Source of the DNA: Verrucomicrobium sp.
Lineage (GTDB): Bacteria > Verrucomicrobiota > Verrucomicrobiia > Methylacidiphilales > GAS474
DNA: 64,000 nt
Reading direction: 5' to 3'
Assembly: GCA_028283855.1 (NCBI GenBank)
Contig: JAPWJX010000001.1
Span: forward strand, 1-64,000
Position 1 is the stretch's first letter, and each line of letters begins with the position of its first letter. A model generated the notes under the pieces. It did no database searches. It was given only the letters and a program-made list of their open reading frames with translations, and was not told the origin of the DNA. The translations under genes and the position numbers were made by a program. Of the stretch, positions 1,920 through 19,255 are shown in pieces.

Positions 1920-4445
1920 TCAGGAAACTTCTTCCTGCTTGAAAAGGTCGGCCTGGGCCCAGGCCTTCATGGCCTTTTTGGAGGAGGGGCCGCGGCGGGA
2001 AGGGGAGATGGAGGTGGGAACCGGCTGGCTCAGGCGGGGGCGGCCGCTGGAGTCGAGCTGTTCCTCCTCCAGGACGCGCAGGACTTCCTTGGCCCGTTCC
2101 ACGACTTCCTGGGGCAGGCCGGCCAGGCGGGCCACCTGGATGCCGTAGCTCTTGTCGGCGCCGCCGGGGACGATCTTCCGCAGGAAGATGACCTGGTCGT
2201 TCCACTCGCGGACGGCCACGCTGGCGTTCTTCACGGCGGCGCGGCCGCCGGCCAGCTCCGTCAGCTCGTGGTAGTGGGTGGCGAAGAGGGTGAGGGCGCG
2301 CGCCTTGTCGTGCAGGTATTCGGCCACCGCCCAGGCGATGGAGAGGCCGTCGAAGGTGCTGGTGCCGCGCCCGATCTCGTCAAGGATGACCAGGCTGTGC
2401 GCGGTGGCGTGGTGGAGGATGTTGGCCGTCTCGCTCATCTCCACCATGAAGGTGCTCTGGCCGCGGGAGAGGTCGTCGCTGGCGCCGATGCGGGTGAAGA
2501 TGCGGTCCAGGACGCCGATGCGGGCGCTCTTGGCCGGGACGAAGCAGCCCAGGTGCGCCATGAGGGCGATGAGGGCGGTCTGCCGCAGGTAGGTGCTCTT
2601 GCCCGCCATGTTGGGGCCGGTGAGGATGAGCAGGCGGTTGCCGTGGGGTTCCAGGTGGGTGTCGTTGGGGATGAAGCGCTCGCCCAAAAGGAGCTGCTCC
2701 AAAACGGGGTGGCGGCCTTCCTTGATCTCCACCTCGACGCCGTCGGTCAGTTCCGGGCGGACGTAGTCCTGCTCCTGGGCCAGGGCGCCCCAGCCGGCCA
2801 GGACGTCGATCTCCGCCAGGGCGCGCGCGGCGGCCTGGATGGCCTCCAGCCGCTCGACGGCGGCGGCGCGCAGGGACTGGAAGATCTCGTATTCCAGCTG
2901 CCGGGAGCGTTCCTCCGCGCCCAGGATCTTCCCTTCCATTTCCTTCAGCTCCGGGGTGATGAAGCGCTCGGCGTTGGCCAGGGTCTGCTTGCGCGTGTAG
3001 TCGGCGGGGACGTTGGCGGCCTGGGACTGGGGAACCTCCAGGTAGTAGCCAAAGACCTGGTTGAAGCGGATTTTGAGGGACTTGATGCCGGTCCGCTCCT
3101 GCTCCCGCTGCTGGAGCTGTGCCAGCCAGGCCTTCCCCTCCGTGCCGGCGGCGCGCAGGGTGTCGAGTTCCGCGTGATACCCGTTGCGGACCAGGCCGCC
3201 TTCCTTGAGGGCCAGGGGCGGCTCGTCGACGAGGGCTTTTTCGAAGAGGGCGACGAGTTCCGGCTGCGGGACGATCTCCGCGGAGAGCTGCTCGACGCGC
3301 GGGGCGGGGACTTCCGTGAGGGTTTCCAGGATGGCGGGGAGGCGGGAGAGGGAGACCTTCAGCCCGGCCAGGTCGCGCGCGTTGCCGGAGCCCTGGCAGA
3401 GGCGGCCGATGAGGCGCTCCAGGTCGCGCACCTCGCGCAGCTGGGCGCGCAGGGCCTCGCGGGGGCGCTCCTCCTCCTTCCAGTAGCCGACGGCGGCCAG
3501 GCGCTGGGTGAGGGCGGCGCGGTCCCGCAGGGGGTGCAGGACCCAGCGGCGCAAGAGGCGGCCCCCGGCGGAGGTGGCGGTACGGTCGATGGCGGAAAGG
3601 AGGCAGGCCTTCGACTCGGCCCCGCCGCGCGCGGGTTCCAGGAGGTCGAGGTTCCGCTGGGTGATGGGGTCGACGGTGACGCACTCCTGCCGCTGGAAGG
3701 TGGCCAGGCGGCGGACGTGGGAGAGGTCGCGCCGCAGCTCCTGGGAGAGGTAGTGGAGGAGGCCGCCCGCCGCGCTGACCGCGCCGGGCAGGGCGGTGAG
3801 GCCGAAGCCGTCCAGGGAGTGAATGTGGAAGTGGTCGCGCAGGGCGGCGGCGGCGGTCGCCTCCTCGAAGGGCCAGCCCTCGTGCCGGACCAGGAGACGC
3901 CCTTCTTCCGAGGGCCAGGGGACGTCGGCGGGCATGACCACCTCGGACGGGTCGAGGCGCTGGAACCATTCCCGCGCCTCGTCGGCGTCGGCGGCCTCGC
4001 CCGCCTGGAACTCGCCCGTGCTCAGGTCCAGGCAGGCCAGGCCGTAGCGGCTCTTGCCGATCTGGACCAGGGAGGCGCAGAAGTTGTTCCGCTTGGCGGA
4101 GAGGACGGTGCCGTCCAGCACGCTGCCGGGGCTGATGACCTGGACGATCTCCCGCCGGACGAGCTGGCCGGGGCGGGCCGTTTCCGTCTGGTCGCAGAGG
4201 GCGACGCGCTTGCCCGCCTTGATGAGCCGGGCGATGTAGCCCTCCGCCGCCGCGTGGGGCATGCCGCACATGGGGATGCCCTGGCGCTGGGTCAGCGTCA
4301 GGTCGAGCAGTTCGGATCCGGCCTTGGCGTCCTCAAAGAACATCTCGTAGAAGTCCCCCAGGCGGAAGAGGATGAGGGCGTCCTTCGGCGCCTGGCTCTT
4401 CAGCTGCCGGTATTGCTGCATCATGGGGGAGGCCGCTTCGCTCAT
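1920..4445 (-). CDS. mutS: DNA mismatch repair ATPase MutS
   Basis: An 841-residue protein, close to the usual MutS1 length. The N-terminal mismatch-binding domain has the conserved GDFYEMFFEDA, containing the Phe-x-Glu that stacks into the mismatch. The C-terminal ATPase has Walker A GPNMAGKSTYLRQ near residue 608, then DDLSRGQSTFMVEM, Walker B VILDEIGRGTSTFDG and the ATHYHELTEL switch. MutS recognises mismatches and small loops and recruits MutL; no mutL lies in this window. The start ATG faces a divergent gene about 90 bases away. The gamma-carbonic-anhydrase-like gene follows after 8 bases. A large open frame on the opposite strand is a shadow of the GC-rich coding pattern. Confidence 0.98.
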   Translation of the reverse strand: MSEAASPMMQQYRQLKSQAPKDALILFRLGDFYEMFFEDAKAGSELLDLTLTQRQGIPMCGMPHAAAEGYIARLIKAGKRVALCDQTETARPGQLVRREIVQVISPGSVLDGTVLSAKRNNFCASLVQIGKSRYGLACLDLSTGEFQAGEAADADEAREWFQRLDPSEVVMPADVPWPSEEGRLLVRHEGWPFEEATAAAALRDHFHIHSLDGFGLTALPGAVSAAGGLLHYLSQELRRDLSHVRRLATFQRQECVTVDPITQRNLDLLEPARGGAESKACLLSAIDRTATSAGGRLLRRWVLHPLRDRAALTQRLAAVGYWKEEERPREALRAQLREVRDLERLIGRLCQGSGNARDLAGLKVSLSRLPAILETLTEVPAPRVEQLSAEIVPQPELVALFEKALVDEPPLALKEGGLVRNGYHAELDTLRAAGTEGKAWLAQLQQREQERTGIKSLKIRFNQVFGYYLEVPQSQAANVPADYTRKQTLANAERFITPELKEMEGKILGAEERSRQLEYEIFQSLRAAAVERLEAIQAAARALAEIDVLAGWGALAQEQDYVRPELTDGVEVEIKEGRHPVLEQLLLGERFIPNDTHLEPHGNRLLILTGPNMAGKSTYLRQTALIALMAHLGCFVPAKSARIGVLDRIFTRIGASDDLSRGQSTFMVEMSETANILHHATAHSLVILDEIGRGTSTFDGLSIAWAVAEYLHDKARALTLFATHYHELTELAGGRAAVKNASVAVREWNDQVIFLRKIVPGGADKSYGIQVARLAGLPQEVVERAKEVLRVLEEEQLDSSGRPRLSQPVPTSISPSRRGPSSKKAMKAWAQADLFKQEEVS

Positions 4446-4493
4446 CTGGCCATCAGCTTAGGAAGGAAACGGCAAAAGACAATGGTACAGGGC

Positions 4494-4522
4494 TTGCTTA
4501 CCGGCTGGAGGACGGGAAAAAT
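4494..4522 (+). promoter_or_regulatory. possible sigma-70 promoter for the deoxynucleotidase gene
   Basis: TTGCTT (4494-4499) is separated by 17 bases from AAAAAT (4517-4522), in the 92-base gap between mutS and the divergent nucleotidase gene. This is a partial match to the -35/-10 consensus, placed 16 bases before the ATG. No clear ribosome binding site precedes that ATG. Weak evidence from sequence alone. Confidence 0.3.
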
Positions 4523-4537
4523 CAGGCCTTTAAAGAC

Positions 4538-5068
4538 ATGCGCCAACGTATTGCGATCGACATGGACGAAGTGGTGGCAGACGCCCTTTCCCGCCACATC
4601 TCCCTCTATAACGCCGAGTTCAAAACCGCCTTCAATCCCGCCGATCTCAAGGGCCGGGATCTCCATGAGGCCGTTCCGCAGGCCCACGCCAAGCGGACGA
4701 GCCAATTCCCTCATGAAGAAGGATTTTTCGACGATCTTACGGTTTTCCCCCACTGCCAGGAGGTGATCCGGGAGCTGCAGGAGAAGTATGAGATCTTCTT
4801 CGCCAGCGCGGCGATGGAGTTCCGCCACTCCCTGGTGCCGAAGCACCAGTGGCTCCACGAGCACTTCCCCTTCGTCCCCTGGACCCACCACGTCTTCTGC
4901 GGGGACAAGAGCATCATCAACGCCGACTACCTGATCGACGACCGGGTGAAGAATTTCACCGGCTTCCGCGGGGAGGGGATCCTCTTCACCGCGCCCCACA
5001 ACGAGGGGATCACCGGCTACCGCCGCGCGAACGACTGGCTGGAGGTGCGGCAGCTCTTCCTCGGCTGA
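4538..5068 (+). CDS. 5'(3')-deoxyribonucleotidase family HAD phosphatase
   Basis: A 176-residue protein of the NT5C type (HAD superfamily). The catalytic motif I DMDEVVAD is at residues 8-15, motif II-like FFASAAM is near residue 85, and the acidic [10 protein letters not shown] near residue 132 fits motif IV. The length is normal for bacterial 5'(3')-deoxyribonucleotidases, which dephosphorylate nucleoside monophosphates such as dUMP and dTMP. thyA starts 5 bases after its stop, so the two probably form an operon. This fits control of pyrimidine deoxynucleotide pools, though the true substrate is unproven. The gene diverges from mutS. Confidence 0.85.
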
Positions 5069-15390: not shown

Positions 15391-15951
15391 TTACTCCCTG
15401 GGCGGCGGGCGGAGCTTGGGGAAGAGCACCAGGGCGGGGGGCGTTTCCCGATCGGCCAGGGCCAGCGCCTCCCGGCGCCGCGTTTCCAGGATTTCCCGGG
15501 ACTTTTCCTTTTGCGCGGGCGTCAGCGGCAGTTCCTCCGCCAGCCTCTCCAGGTAGGGGCGGTAGATAAAGAAGCTCAGGTAGGAGTCGTCATTTTCCAG
15601 AGGCCCTGCCAGGGGGCCCGCGATGGCCAGGACTTTGCGCAGGGCATGCGGGGCGTGCGGCGGGCCATCCTCCTTGAGAGCGTCGGCAGCCTCCTCCATC
15701 CGCTCGTATCGGGCGCGGACGGAGGGGTCCAGAAGCGCGGCGATTTTGGTCCGGGACTCCCGGCGGATGGAGTCGAGTTTTTCCCGATAGGCCCGTATGG
15801 CCGGCTCGGCCTGGCCGAATTCCTTGGAAAGGTCGCCTTGCTCGAAAAAGGGGGGCGGTGGGGGATGGAGGCGCTGCGTCCAGACGCCCGTTAGGAGGCC
15901 GCCCAGGAAGACGGCCGTGGTGACCAGCATGATTTGAATGGATTCCTTCAT
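15391..15951 (-). CDS. membrane-anchored periplasmic protein, Spy/CnrX-like sensor candidate
   Basis: A 186-residue protein with one N-terminal membrane segment (residues 7-24), a short proline run (PPPPPF) and an alpha-helical, charged periplasmic domain. It contains LTPAQKEKSREIL, resembling the LTxxQ motif of the Spy/CpxP/CnrX group. It is the third gene of an operon after an ECF sigma gene and a single-TM small protein, with 11 bases from the preceding gene. In the cobalt/nickel CnrYXH system the same three parts are sigma factor, short anti-sigma and membrane-anchored sensor. I infer a similar sensor role; the signal is unknown and no obvious metal-binding His cluster is seen. Confidence 0.6.
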   Translation of the reverse strand: MKESIQIMLVTTAVFLGGLLTGVWTQRLHPPPPPFFEQGDLSKEFGQAEPAIRAYREKLDSIRRESRTKIAALLDPSVRARYERMEEAADALKEDGPPHAPHALRKVLAIAGPLAGPLENDDSYLSFFIYRPYLERLAEELPLTPAQKEKSREILETRRREALALADRETPPALVLFPKLRPPPRE

Positions 15952-15962
15952 GATTCTGATTC

Positions 15963-16226
15963 TTAGAGGGAGGGGCCCACCTGGATCCGGGTCCAGGCGT
16001 AGGCGTGCCAGGCGTCGAGCGCGCGTTTTTCTTCCTCCCGGGCGTGCCAGCGCCAGCCTGCGTTCACCACCAGGAAGAGGAGGAGCGCGGTGCAGAGCGC
16101 CCCGCGCATCCGCCGCGCGTGGAGGGCGCGCCGCGCGGCCAGTAGGACCGTGCGGCGGGCAAAGTCGGGGGAAAGAAAGCGTCCCGCCTGGGTGGTCAGG
16201 CGGCGCCAGTGAGGGTCATGTTTCAT
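15963..16226 (-). CDS. short single-pass membrane protein, candidate anti-sigma factor
   Basis: An 87-residue protein: about 40 residues of basic cytoplasmic N-terminus, a membrane helix (residues 42-58, GALCTALLLFLVVNAG) and a short outer tail. Its ATG lies 11 bases inside the end of the ECF sigma gene, so translation is coupled. Size, topology and position match short anti-sigma factors such as CnrY, where the N-terminal helix grips the sigma factor. No zinc-binding (ZAS) motif is present. The role is inferred from context, not from a recognised domain. Confidence 0.6.
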   Translation of the reverse strand: MKHDPHWRRLTTQAGRFLSPDFARRTVLLAARRALHARRMRGALCTALLLFLVVNAGWRWHAREEEKRALDAWHAYAWTRIQVGPSL

Positions 16227-16755
16227 GGGGTTTTTGGGCTTTGAGGCTTTTGCGCGCGCGGAATAGGCGCGATTTCACGGAGCTGACGGAGCTGCCGGTC
16301 AGGCGCGCCAGGTCTTCGTAGCTGAGATCCCCTGCCTGGCTGAGGGCCAGCAGCTCCCGCTGTTCCGGCGGGAGGGAGAGGATGGCGGAGCGCAGCCAGT
16401 CCGCGCGGGAGCTTTCTTCCGCGGGGGGAGGCTCCTCCGCGGGCGTGTCGTGGTGGGAGAGGAAGGGCACGAAGCGGCGCCGCCACCTTTCCCTGCGCAG
16501 GTGGGTCAGGCAGACGTTGCGGGCCAGGCGGAAGAGCCAGGCCTCGAACCGCTCGGAGTCCTTCAACTGATGCAGTCCCCGCAGCATCTTGAGAAAGACC
16601 TGCTGGGCGAGGTCCTCGATGACCGCCGTTTCCCCGGTGAGGGAGAAAATGAATCCAGCAATCCGTTGCTGGTAGCATAGGATGATGGCTTCCTGGGCAG
16701 TCAGGTCGCCGTTGCGGGCCGCGGCAAGACGGGGCAGCAGCTCCTCTTTTTGCAT
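16216..16755 (-). CDS. ECF-family RNA polymerase sigma factor
   Basis: A 179-residue two-domain sigma factor. Region 2 spans about residues 20-95 (AVIEDLAQQVFLKML and FEAWLFRLARNVCLTHLRRE). Region 4 spans about 125-175 (ILSLPPEQRELLALSQAGDLSYEDLARLTGSS broken at the helix-turn-helix, then VKSRLFRARKSLK). A Pro/Glu-rich linker separates them. The operon continues with a short membrane protein (11-base overlap) and a membrane-anchored periplasmic protein. A canonical ECF promoter lies 38 bases upstream on the same strand and a second faces the opposite gene, implying autoregulation. The sigma assignment is firm; the inducing signal is not known. Confidence 0.95.
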   Translation of the reverse strand: MQKEELLPRLAAARNGDLTAQEAIILCYQQRIAGFIFSLTGETAVIEDLAQQVFLKMLRGLHQLKDSERFEAWLFRLARNVCLTHLRRERWRRRFVPFLSHHDTPAEEPPPAEESSRADWLRSAILSLPPEQRELLALSQAGDLSYEDLARLTGSSVSSVKSRLFRARKSLKAQKPHET

Positions 16756-16792
16756 GGGTTGGGATTCATGGGGCGGAAGGGGTGCATGAAGC

Positions 16793-16817
16793 TAGACGCC
16801 CGGGACGGGGAAAAGTT
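16793..16817 (-). promoter_or_regulatory. ECF-type promoter for the sigma operon
   Basis: On the reverse strand TGCAACTTTT provides a -35 whose AAC core is at 16815-16817, followed by exactly 16 bases and then CGTCTA (16793-16798). AAC-N16-CGTC is the classic ECF sigma promoter architecture. It is about 38 bases from the sigma gene start, leaving a leader of roughly 30 bases. The mirror-image promoter on the other strand strengthens the call and suggests that this sigma factor drives its own operon. Confidence 0.72.
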
Positions 16818-16851
16818 GCACCCGGAAAGGAAAAAATCGGCGCGGGCGCGC

Positions 16852-16876
16852 AACTTTTTCGGGCCGGGCGGGTCTG
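16852..16876 (+). promoter_or_regulatory. ECF-type promoter for the Ser-rich protein gene
   Basis: GCAACTTTTT with AAC core at 16852-16854, then 16 bases, then GGTCTG (16871-16876). The spacing matches the divergent promoter exactly and nine bases of the -35 region are identical (GCAACTTTT). It lies about 70 bases upstream of the ATG at 16948. This predicts that the Ser-rich gene belongs to the regulon of the neighbouring ECF sigma factor. Confidence 0.65.
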
Positions 16877-16947
16877 GCTCCGTACGAAGGGAATCGCTGG
16901 CTGCAACCAGGGAAGGTTTTTTAATAACCTAACCAAGGAGTTTTCCC

Positions 16948-17661
16948 ATGTCATCCACCAGCGGCGTCGGCGGCACCAGCCTTTACCAGGCTCTTATCCA
17001 AGCCCTTCAGCAGACCACCATCTCATCCACCATTTCCGTGGGCACGGCTCTGGATAGCGGCCTGTCCAGCACATCCAGCGCGGCGATCGATACCATCAGC
17101 ATTTCCAGCAGTTCCTCGGCGGGGGATGTTTCCTCCTCCTCGGACGATTCCTCCAGCCAGTTTGAGGACCTGCTTAAGGAATTCACGGAGGCGCTGACTC
17201 AGCTCTTCCAGCTTTTGAGTTCCAACACGGCTTCGGACTCTTCGGCCGGCGGGTCCTCTTCCGGTTCCAGCTCCGATTCCAGCACCTCCTCGGTAAGCGG
17301 AAGCGATTCGAGCACGGCGGCCCAGGGGCTTTCCTCCTCCCTCTCTTCCAGCGCGCAGGCGTTGTACTCTTACTCGGCCAGCGGGGGGGATGCCGGCAAT
17401 GACGGCGCCTCCCAGGACAGCTCGGAAACCCTGCGGAGCCGTTTCCTGGAGGAGTTGCAGAAGGGGGCGAACGATTACTATAGCCAGACTCAGGGGAGCG
17501 GGGACGGAACGGATAGTGCCTCCGGTTCCGGAAGCGGCGTTTCCCGGGCGGATTTTCTGGCCCAGACTCAGGCGGCGGGAAATGACTTTGCCTCCGTGCT
17601 GCAGCAGGGGGGCGGGGTGGCCTATATGAAGGCTTTCCTGTCCAAGGCCTACTCCTCGTAG
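16948..17661 (+). CDS. Ser-rich low-complexity protein, predicted ECF target
   Basis: A 237-residue protein with a strong AAGGAG ribosome binding site 7 bases before the ATG. Roughly a third of the residues are serine, in runs separated by Asp, Gly and Thr. Two more ordered, amphipathic stretches stand out: QFEDLLKEFTEALTQLFQLL (about residues 70-89) and a C-terminal helix ending VAYMKAFLSKAYSS. There is no cysteine and no classical signal peptide. The composition is unlike its neighbours. No family recognised; the look is that of an exported or surface/structural low-complexity protein, but that is only a guess. An ECF-type promoter matching the adjacent sigma operon precedes it. Confidence 0.72.
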   Translation: MSSTSGVGGTSLYQALIQALQQTTISSTISVGTALDSGLSSTSSAAIDTISISSSSSAGDVSSSSDDSSSQFEDLLKEFTEALTQLFQLLSSNTASDSSAGGSSSGSSSDSSTSSVSGSDSSTAAQGLSSSLSSSAQALYSYSASGGDAGNDGASQDSSETLRSRFLEELQKGANDYYSQTQGSGDGTDSASGSGSGVSRADFLAQTQAAGNDFASVLQQGGGVAYMKAFLSKAYSS

Positions 17662-17683: not shown

Positions 17684-18361
17684 TCAGGCCGGGGAGACGA
17701 AGCCCGCCTTGATCGCGTAGCGGGTCAGGCCGACGGCGTCCCGGATGTTCAGCTTGTTCATGATGTTGGCGCGGTGGTTTTCCACCGTCCGGGAGCTGAC
17801 ATGGAGTTGCGCGGCGATTTCCTTCGACGAAAGTCCCTGGGCGACCAGCTGAATGATCTCCCGTTCCCGCGCGGTGAGGTGCGGGCGGTCGTGCTGGGGG
17901 TTGACCAGGTGCTCGCGGAGGACTTCCGTGATGCGGGGACCGAAGAAGGTCTTGCCGCTGGAAACCTCGCGCAGGGCCTCGCTGAAGGTTTCCAGGGGGG
18001 CGCTTTTTTCGACGAAGCCGTGGGCGCCGCAGGCCAGCATTTCCTTGAGCATGGCCGGGTCGTCGTGGGCGGAGATGGCCAGCACGCGCAGGGTGGGGCG
18101 CTGCGGCATGACGCGGCGGAGGACTTCCGCGCCGGGGATCTTCGGCAGGATGACGTCCAGGACCAGCATGTCCGGCTGGAGTTCCTGGCAGAGCTTGAGG
18201 GCTTCCTCGCCGTCGCTGGCCTCGCCGACGACGGTGAAGTTTTCCAGGGGCTTGAGGACGGCGACGATGAGCTGCCGGAGCATGGTCTGGTCGTCGACGA
18301 CCAGTACGCGCGTCTTTTTGGGCTGCGCTGCTTTGGATGATTCCGCGTTTTTGGTGCCCAT
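17684..18361 (-). CDS. NarL/FixJ-type response regulator
   Basis: A 225-residue protein from the ATG at 18361 (MGTKNAESSKAAQ); an in-frame extension to 18406 is possible but lacks conserved sequence. The receiver domain has acidic VVDDQ, phosphoacceptor Asp in VLDVILPKIPG and the switch lysine in GFVEKSAP. The C-terminal LuxR helix-turn-helix reads LTAREREIIQLVAQGLSSKE with SSRTVENHRANIMNKLNI. It should bind DNA when phosphorylated. No cognate histidine kinase is in the window. The neighbouring divergent gene encodes a receiver-HPt protein, so the two may exchange phosphate. Confidence 0.92.
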   Translation of the reverse strand: MGTKNAESSKAAQPKKTRVLVVDDQTMLRQLIVAVLKPLENFTVVGEASDGEEALKLCQELQPDMLVLDVILPKIPGAEVLRRVMPQRPTLRVLAISAHDDPAMLKEMLACGAHGFVEKSAPLETFSEALREVSSGKTFFGPRITEVLREHLVNPQHDRPHLTAREREIIQLVAQGLSSKEIAAQLHVSSRTVENHRANIMNKLNIRDAVGLTRYAIKAGFVSPA

Positions 18362-18469: not shown

Positions 18470-19255
18470 ATGGAAATCCTCGTCGTCGACGACAGCAACA
18501 TCGCCCGCCGCCTGACTAGCCAGCTCCTGCGGAGCCTGGGCCACCGCTCCGACGCGGCGGAGAGCGCGGAGGAGGCCATTTCCCTCGTCGCCAAGAAAGG
18601 GTACGACATTATTTTTCTGGACCTGCACATGCCTGGCATGGGCGGCCTGGAGGCGATGGCCGCCATCCTCAAGAAGGTCCGCAAGAACCGCCCGCCGCCC
18701 GCCGTGGTGGCGCTCACGGCGGAGAATTCCGAGGCGCAGCGCCAGGCCTGCCTGGCCGCCGGAATGGCGGGCTTCCTCACCAAGCCCTGCCGCCGGGACG
18801 AGATGTCCCGCGTGATCGAGGCGTGCCAGAAACATGAGGACGTCTCCGCCTTCCGCCCCGGCCTCCGCCCGGCGGAGGGCGGCTGGACGCATGAGCCTTT
18901 CCTGCGCGCCGGTACGGTGGAGGCGCTCAAGCGTTTGCCGGGGGAGAACGGCGGCAGTCTCCTGCCGGAGATGATCGCCGCGCTGGAGAAGGACACGCCG
19001 AAGACCGCCCGGCAGATCGGCGTCCTCCTGCGCGCCCGCAGCTGGAAGGCGGCGCGGGAGGGCCTGCACAAGCTCATCGGCAATTTTGAGGTGATCGGCT
19101 CCCCCCGGCTGGCCGCCTTCTGCCGGGCCTGTTCCGCCCATGTGAAGGACGCGGAAGGCGGCAAGCGCGGCGCCGGGCCCGCCGTGCGCCGCCTGTGGAA
19201 CGATTTTTCCAACGAGTTTGCCGCCCTGAAAGACACCTTGCGACGCGACGGCTGA
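18470..19255 (+). CDS. receiver-HPt two-component protein
   Basis: A 261-residue protein. The N-terminal receiver (residues 1-120) has ILVVDDSN, phosphoacceptor Asp in IIFLDLHMPGMGG, LTAEN and the conserved lysine in GFLTKPC. The C-terminal helical region contains REGLHKLIGNFEVIG, matching the histidine phosphotransfer pattern with the phospho-His near residue 200. There is no DNA-binding domain. Such receiver-HPt proteins pass phosphate between a hybrid kinase and a final regulator; the divergent NarL-type gene is a plausible output partner (inference). ATG 18470 starts exactly at the first receiver strand; an upstream TTG at 18422 is less likely. Confidence 0.88.
   Translation: MEILVVDDSNIARRLTSQLLRSLGHRSDAAESAEEAISLVAKKGYDIIFLDLHMPGMGGLEAMAAILKKVRKNRPPPAVVALTAENSEAQRQACLAAGMAGFLTKPCRRDEMSRVIEACQKHEDVSAFRPGLRPAEGGWTHEPFLRAGTVEALKRLPGENGGSLLPEMIAALEKDTPKTARQIGVLLRARSWKAAREGLHKLIGNFEVIGSPRLAAFCRACSAHVKDAEGGKRGAGPAVRRLWNDFSNEFAALKDTLRRDG

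Follow-up and report, generated by a model that had tools for sequence, protein, structure and literature searches.

The hallmarks of ECF sigma factor systems are a promoter with AAC in the -35 element and CGT in the -10 element, autoregulation, and a linked membrane anti-sigma factor (PMC8103513). In the CnrYXH system of Cupriavidus metallidurans, the ECF sigma factor CnrH is encoded together with the class II anti-sigma factor CnrY and the periplasmic sensor CnrX. CnrY binds its sigma factor through two short helices (PMC7406223). The inducer frees CnrH from the CnrYX complex, and CnrH then transcribes its own operon and neighbouring output genes (PMC4803752). In the literature searched, we found no ECF sigma factor with a Ser-rich divergent target.

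We analysed a stretch of 64,000 nucleotides (the window) with a locus that is probably a self-contained ECF sigma switch, driving both its own operon and a Ser-rich gene via divergent promoters. The features of the locus are as follows.

15391..15951, minus strand: putative membrane-anchored periplasmic helical sensor, 186 aa (N-terminal TM helix, sub-threshold LTXXQ/Metal_resist matches)
15963..16226, minus strand: putative small anti-sigma factor, 87 aa (ORF, hydropathy, conserved position)
16216..16755, minus strand: ECF sigma factor, 179 aa (Pfam Sigma70_r2 4.1e-16, Sigma70_r4_2 1.3e-16)
16795-16819, minus strand: predicted ECF-type promoter on the sigma operon side, GCAACTTTT-N12-CGTC
16850-16874, plus strand: predicted ECF-type promoter on the Ser-rich gene side, GCAACTTTT-N12-GGTC
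16948..17661, plus strand: Ser-rich acidic low-complexity protein, 237 aa (ORF, AAGGAG ribosome-binding site)

The one-TM and sensor genes lie outside the range 16216-17661 to which the first-pass annotation had assigned the system. Elsewhere in the window are genes for a NarL-type response regulator (17684-18361, minus strand), convergent with the Ser-rich gene, and for a receiver protein whose Hpt match falls just below threshold (18470-19255, plus strand); no kinase was seen adjoining either gene. Searches with defence-system models gave no match.

The 192-bp spacer between the sigma gene and the Ser-rich gene holds the two divergent predicted promoters. The minus strand from 16819 to 16795 reads GCAACTTTTCCCCGTCCCGGGCGTC, with AAC at 16817-16815 followed by 16 bases and then CGTC. 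The plus strand from 16850 to 16874 reads GCAACTTTTTCGGGCCGGGCGGGTC, with AAC at 16852-16854 and, again after 16 bases, GGTC. The two AAC cores are separated by 34 bases, and the distance from the end of the -10 element to the ATG is 39 nt for the sigma gene and 73 nt for the Ser-rich gene. On re-reading, the ORFs, AAC cores, 34-base distance and 16-base intervals to CGTC or GGTC given in the first-pass annotation proved exact. Its further claim that the two promoters form a matching divergent pair holds beyond chance. The strict pattern GCAACTTTT-N12-[CG]GTC has exactly two matches on both strands of the window's own genome (2,556,416 bp), both in the spacer, compared to an expectation of 0.18 matches per genome from a third-order Markov model built on the window, and the reversed-pattern control gives 0 matches in the same 2,556,416 bp. 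With two mismatches allowed, the window contains three more, scattered matches, where 1.6 are expected in all.

The genus comparison comprised the window genome, G001 and G002, the latter two also being the only other genomes of the family available. All three carry the four-gene block of sigma factor, one-TM protein, sensor and divergent Ser-rich protein. The sigma orthologs are 61% (G001) and 59% (G002) identical to the window sigma factor, and in the same order the one-TM proteins have 92 and 91 aa, the sensors 180 and 173 aa, and the Ser-rich proteins 365 and 340 aa. Conservation of the promoter pair in relatives had been proposed earlier as a test of the system. Of 384 class genomes searched, the inverted pair occurs once in each of the three genus genomes, flanked by the same divergent genes every time, and is absent from the other 381; a match, being palindromic, scored on both strands. 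The reversed control matches in 5 of the 384. The distance between the two GCAAC elements varies from 30 to 47 bases among the genus genomes and that from AAC to [CG]GTC is constant at 16; outside the promoter blocks, which stay, the spacer diverges. The genes flanking the block also differ: judged by inspection of translations, its neighbour is ornithine carbamoyltransferase-like in G001 and aminotransferase-like in G002, and in the window it is the NarL-type regulator. This implies that the block holds together independently of its surroundings. In both G001 (L025) and G002 (L026), CGTCGTACG is found just past the -10 element on the Ser-rich side, and the window counterpart, CCGTACG, lies 10 bases further on.

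The sigma factor has Sigma70_r2 at residues 25-92 and Sigma70_r4_2 at residues 119-171, both above cut-off. With sigma2 and sigma4 only, it is an ECF sigma factor by domain content, preceded by a predicted site of the AAC -35/CGT -10 type. Its ORF shares 11 bp with that of the 87-aa protein, for which hydropathy indicates ~40 cytoplasmic residues, one TM helix (~40-60) and a short outer tail. A family-model search with this protein gave no match, and the anti-sigma profile found no meaningful match in the PDB. One-TM proteins of 88-98 aa adjoin the sigma gene in seven other loci of the order, with one of 119 aa in a metagenome-assembled genome (MAG L018, see below), and the relatives share the conserved pattern W..L...A...L..DF..RV. 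We infer an anti-sigma role for the 87-aa protein and, likewise, a sensor role for the 186-aa protein. The window sensor scores 17.0 bits against LTXXQ (PF07813), below the cut-off of 24.3, and has no match to Metal_resist (PF13801) in the Pfam scan. Sub-threshold matches to both models recur in the sensor family, the best member reaching 19.6 against a cut-off of 29.2. The structure model of the sensor is mostly helical (pLDDT 70); Foldseek and VIA-align gave no significant structural match to it, and CnrX and Spy were absent among the matches listed. Native sensors, in the window and in relatives, align to the LTXXQ profile with the halves exchanged, its first half falling on their C-terminal part and its second half on their N-terminal part. 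A circular permutation was considered but gained no support, as artificially swapping the halves shifts the LTXXQ scores only slightly (17.0 to 16.1, 17.2 to 20.6, 16.7 to 17.8, 15.4 to 16.1, 18.8 to 19.5 and 13.4 to 13.1 bits). The first-pass annotation had grouped a short anti-sigma-like membrane protein and a sensor-like protein with the sigma factor and the Ser-rich gene, and these four do recur as one unit in the relatives.

The Ser-rich protein of the window contains 28.7% Ser and no Cys, and has a pI of ~4. The three genus copies have 26-34% Ser, no Cys and few Lys or Arg. The likeness between the window and G001 copies exceeds what composition gives (1 of 500 shuffles as good), and between the window and G002 copies this excess is weak (20 of 500). 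A dN of 0.37 and a dS of 0.87 between the G001 and G002 copies are consistent with a protein under selection. Profile searches of 369 class and 388 phylum genomes, made insensitive by the low complexity of the protein, found no relative beyond the genus, and no Pfam or NCBIfam model matches at E<=1. The protein had been suggested to be exported or structural. Neither idea gains support, as we found no signal peptide or Sec-type hydrophobic N-terminus and no TM helix, and the structure model is of very low confidence (mean pLDDT 39), with no confident fold. A bolder and rather doubtful proposal is that it founds a new genus-restricted family of acidic low-complexity stress proteins, an orphan that an older autoregulated triad captured when one promoter was gained, and that would be the sole dedicated output of the ECF sigma factor and might leave the cell by a non-Sec route.

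The pair in the spacer could be the most visible part of a broad sigma regulon. A relaxed consensus gives one further site in G001 and three in G002, and the strict consensus may overlook weaker targets. One of the G002 sites, GCAACTTTGGCCACCTCAACACGTC (L039, reverse-strand site 1501; contig C341:1120-1144), is intergenic, 90 nt upstream of the gene for a 331-aa protein whose start resembles a signal peptide, and is a possible extra target in G002. The window's own genome, however, has no third strict site, and its single relaxed extra site is antisense within an ORF with the spacing off by one, so we consider a broad regulon unlikely.

The closest sigma factors outside the genus, at ~197 bits well above other non-genus ones, come from three genomes (G038, G039 and G040) that belong to a different family in the order. 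Two of them show the full operon of sigma factor, 88-aa one-TM protein and 200-aa sensor, and in the third the contig stops after the one-TM gene. Their sigma-side sites are GCAACTTTT-N12-CGTC in G039 and G040 and GAAACTTTT-N12-CGTC in G038 (the three in full: GCAACTTTTCGTGCTGAGCGGCGTC, GCAACTTTTTCAAGTCAGCGGCGTC and GAAACTTTTTGTGCTTTCTCGCGTC). The gene beside the sigma gene is not Ser-rich in these operons, and the sigma-facing site has no mate. MAG L018 (JAJPHG010000008.1), labelled Alphaproteobacteria, encodes a sigma factor 52% identical to that of the window in a triad with the order sensor, sigma factor, anti-sigma factor, the last a small one-TM protein. Its upstream site, read by eye, is GAAACTTCGCCCGGTAAGCTCCGTC (GAAACTT-N14-CGTC), and no Ser-rich gene adjoins the triad. 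The L018 sensor clearly belongs to Metal_resist, the family of CnrX, with 45.7 bits against a cut-off of 29.2. Horizontal transfer or a mislabelled bin is possible for this locus (3456-4872). Altogether, related sites precede five orthologous operons within the order and the operon of MAG L018, and the order sigma factor, one-TM protein, sensor is kept in the genus and other-family operons. Because the other-family and L018 operons have a predicted promoter of their own and no Ser-rich neighbour, the triad with its putative self-regulation is older and more widespread than the Ser-rich gene; the latter was apparently added at genus level, unless it was lost elsewhere. The two-promoter arrangement also appears unnecessary to the system, since the distant orthologous operons keep the sigma-facing site only.

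The single site in the other family would also fit a sigma factor that controls itself alone, with the Ser-rich-side site inert or the Ser-rich gene under another promoter, as would the less usual GGTC of the window's Ser-rich-side site (the remaining five genus sites have CGTC). We regard such self-only control as very unlikely, as the Ser-rich-side site is present with the right spacing in all three genus genomes, and a sigma70-type site, looked for in the spacer, was not found. It is hardly credible that the GCAACTTTT repeat, albeit near-perfectly inverted and with a response regulator gene adjoining the block in the window, acts as the operator of a dimeric regulator such as the NarL-type protein, or as a transcribed hairpin, in place of sigma promoters, given that the GCAAC elements shift relative to each other while each keeps its 16-base interval to [CG]GTC, that orthologous operons elsewhere retain one half-site and its -10 element with no mate, and that the predicted RNA hairpin is no stronger than shuffled sequences on the plus strand (z -1.0) and exceeds them by just a modest margin on the minus strand (z -2.2).

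A second triad is encoded in the window's own genome, with a sigma factor 41% identical to that of the window, and a copy of this paralogous triad is found in G001.

5883-7506 of L028 (own genome, G000, contig C3): paralogous sigma/one-TM/sensor triad, TGTAACC-type upstream site
4148-5975 of L027 (G001): paralogous sigma/one-TM/sensor triad, TGTAACC-type upstream site

Upstream of the triad on contig C3, TGTAACC is followed about one -10 distance away by CGTC; in the G001 copy TGTAACC goes with GGTC. The sigma4 stretch VKSRLFRAR is common to all six order orthologs, the sigma factors with GCAACTTT sites, and the paralogs have KTRVHRA. As the candidate promoter of the paralogous triad differs, these few sequences would fit two insulated sigma-promoter pairs, each of dedicated specificity. 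The candidate pairs VKSRLFRAR/GCAACTTT and KTRVHRA/TGTAACC may be of use in predicting the promoter code and in building orthogonal circuits.

The self-contained switch that we favour would operate as follows. At rest, the 87-aa one-TM protein and the sensor would tether the sigma factor to the membrane. A periplasmic signal, sensed by the membrane-anchored helical protein, would weaken this tether, and the free sigma factor together with RNA polymerase would bind GCAACTTT-N13-[CG]GTC and fire both divergent promoters. Firing of the sigma-side promoter would yield more sigma factor, anti-sigma factor and sensor, a positive feedback loop that brings its own brake. The Ser-rich-side promoter would yield the Ser-rich protein, which would be the principal further target and perhaps the sole one. 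Sigma binding and the direction of control are predictions from sequence. The autoregulation expected earlier gains sequence support from the sigma-side site, conserved in the genus and before the other-family orthologs, and the Ser-rich gene from its own site, kept in all three genus genomes, as a predicted direct target. The locus may be a clean, naturally occurring case of an ECF regulon reduced to its minimum, in which an ancestral, apparently self-regulated triad present in several lineages would have been joined in one genus by one output gene with its own promoter. It would also tie a protein family without assigned function to a testable inducing system.

The system shares with RpoE/SigW-type ECF systems the AAC -35 and CGT -10 elements, predicted autoregulation and a linked putative membrane anti-sigma factor; it differs in that the window anti-sigma factor has no detectable RseA-type domain and that the sensor has a separate gene. 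The L018 triad resembles it in sigma identity, in the small one-TM protein and in the related upstream site, whereas in L018 the sensor gene precedes the sigma gene and a Ser-rich neighbour is lacking. Compared to CnrYXH, the gene order is sigma factor, anti-sigma factor, sensor instead of anti-sigma factor, sensor, sigma factor, and the predicted output is a Ser-rich protein instead of a metal efflux pump. The window sigma factor is 28% identical to CnrH and scores better against other ECF sigma factors, for example Pseudomonas aeruginosa sigma-H. Profile comparisons revealed no similarity of the window anti-sigma factor to CnrY (hhalign probability 0.3%) or of the window sensor to CnrX, and by family thresholds both proteins fall short of membership in the CnrYXH families. 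The one-TM protein has the class II (CnrY-like) layout, with ~40 aa (fewer than 50) before a single TM helix and an ORF overlapping that of the sigma factor. As predicted from sequence, the window system is likely to work like CnrYXH, with which it shares the three-gene set, a sigma factor of ~180-190 aa, an anti-sigma factor of less than 100 aa that has one TM helix and whose cytoplasmic part is short, and a periplasmic helical protein anchored at its N-terminus.
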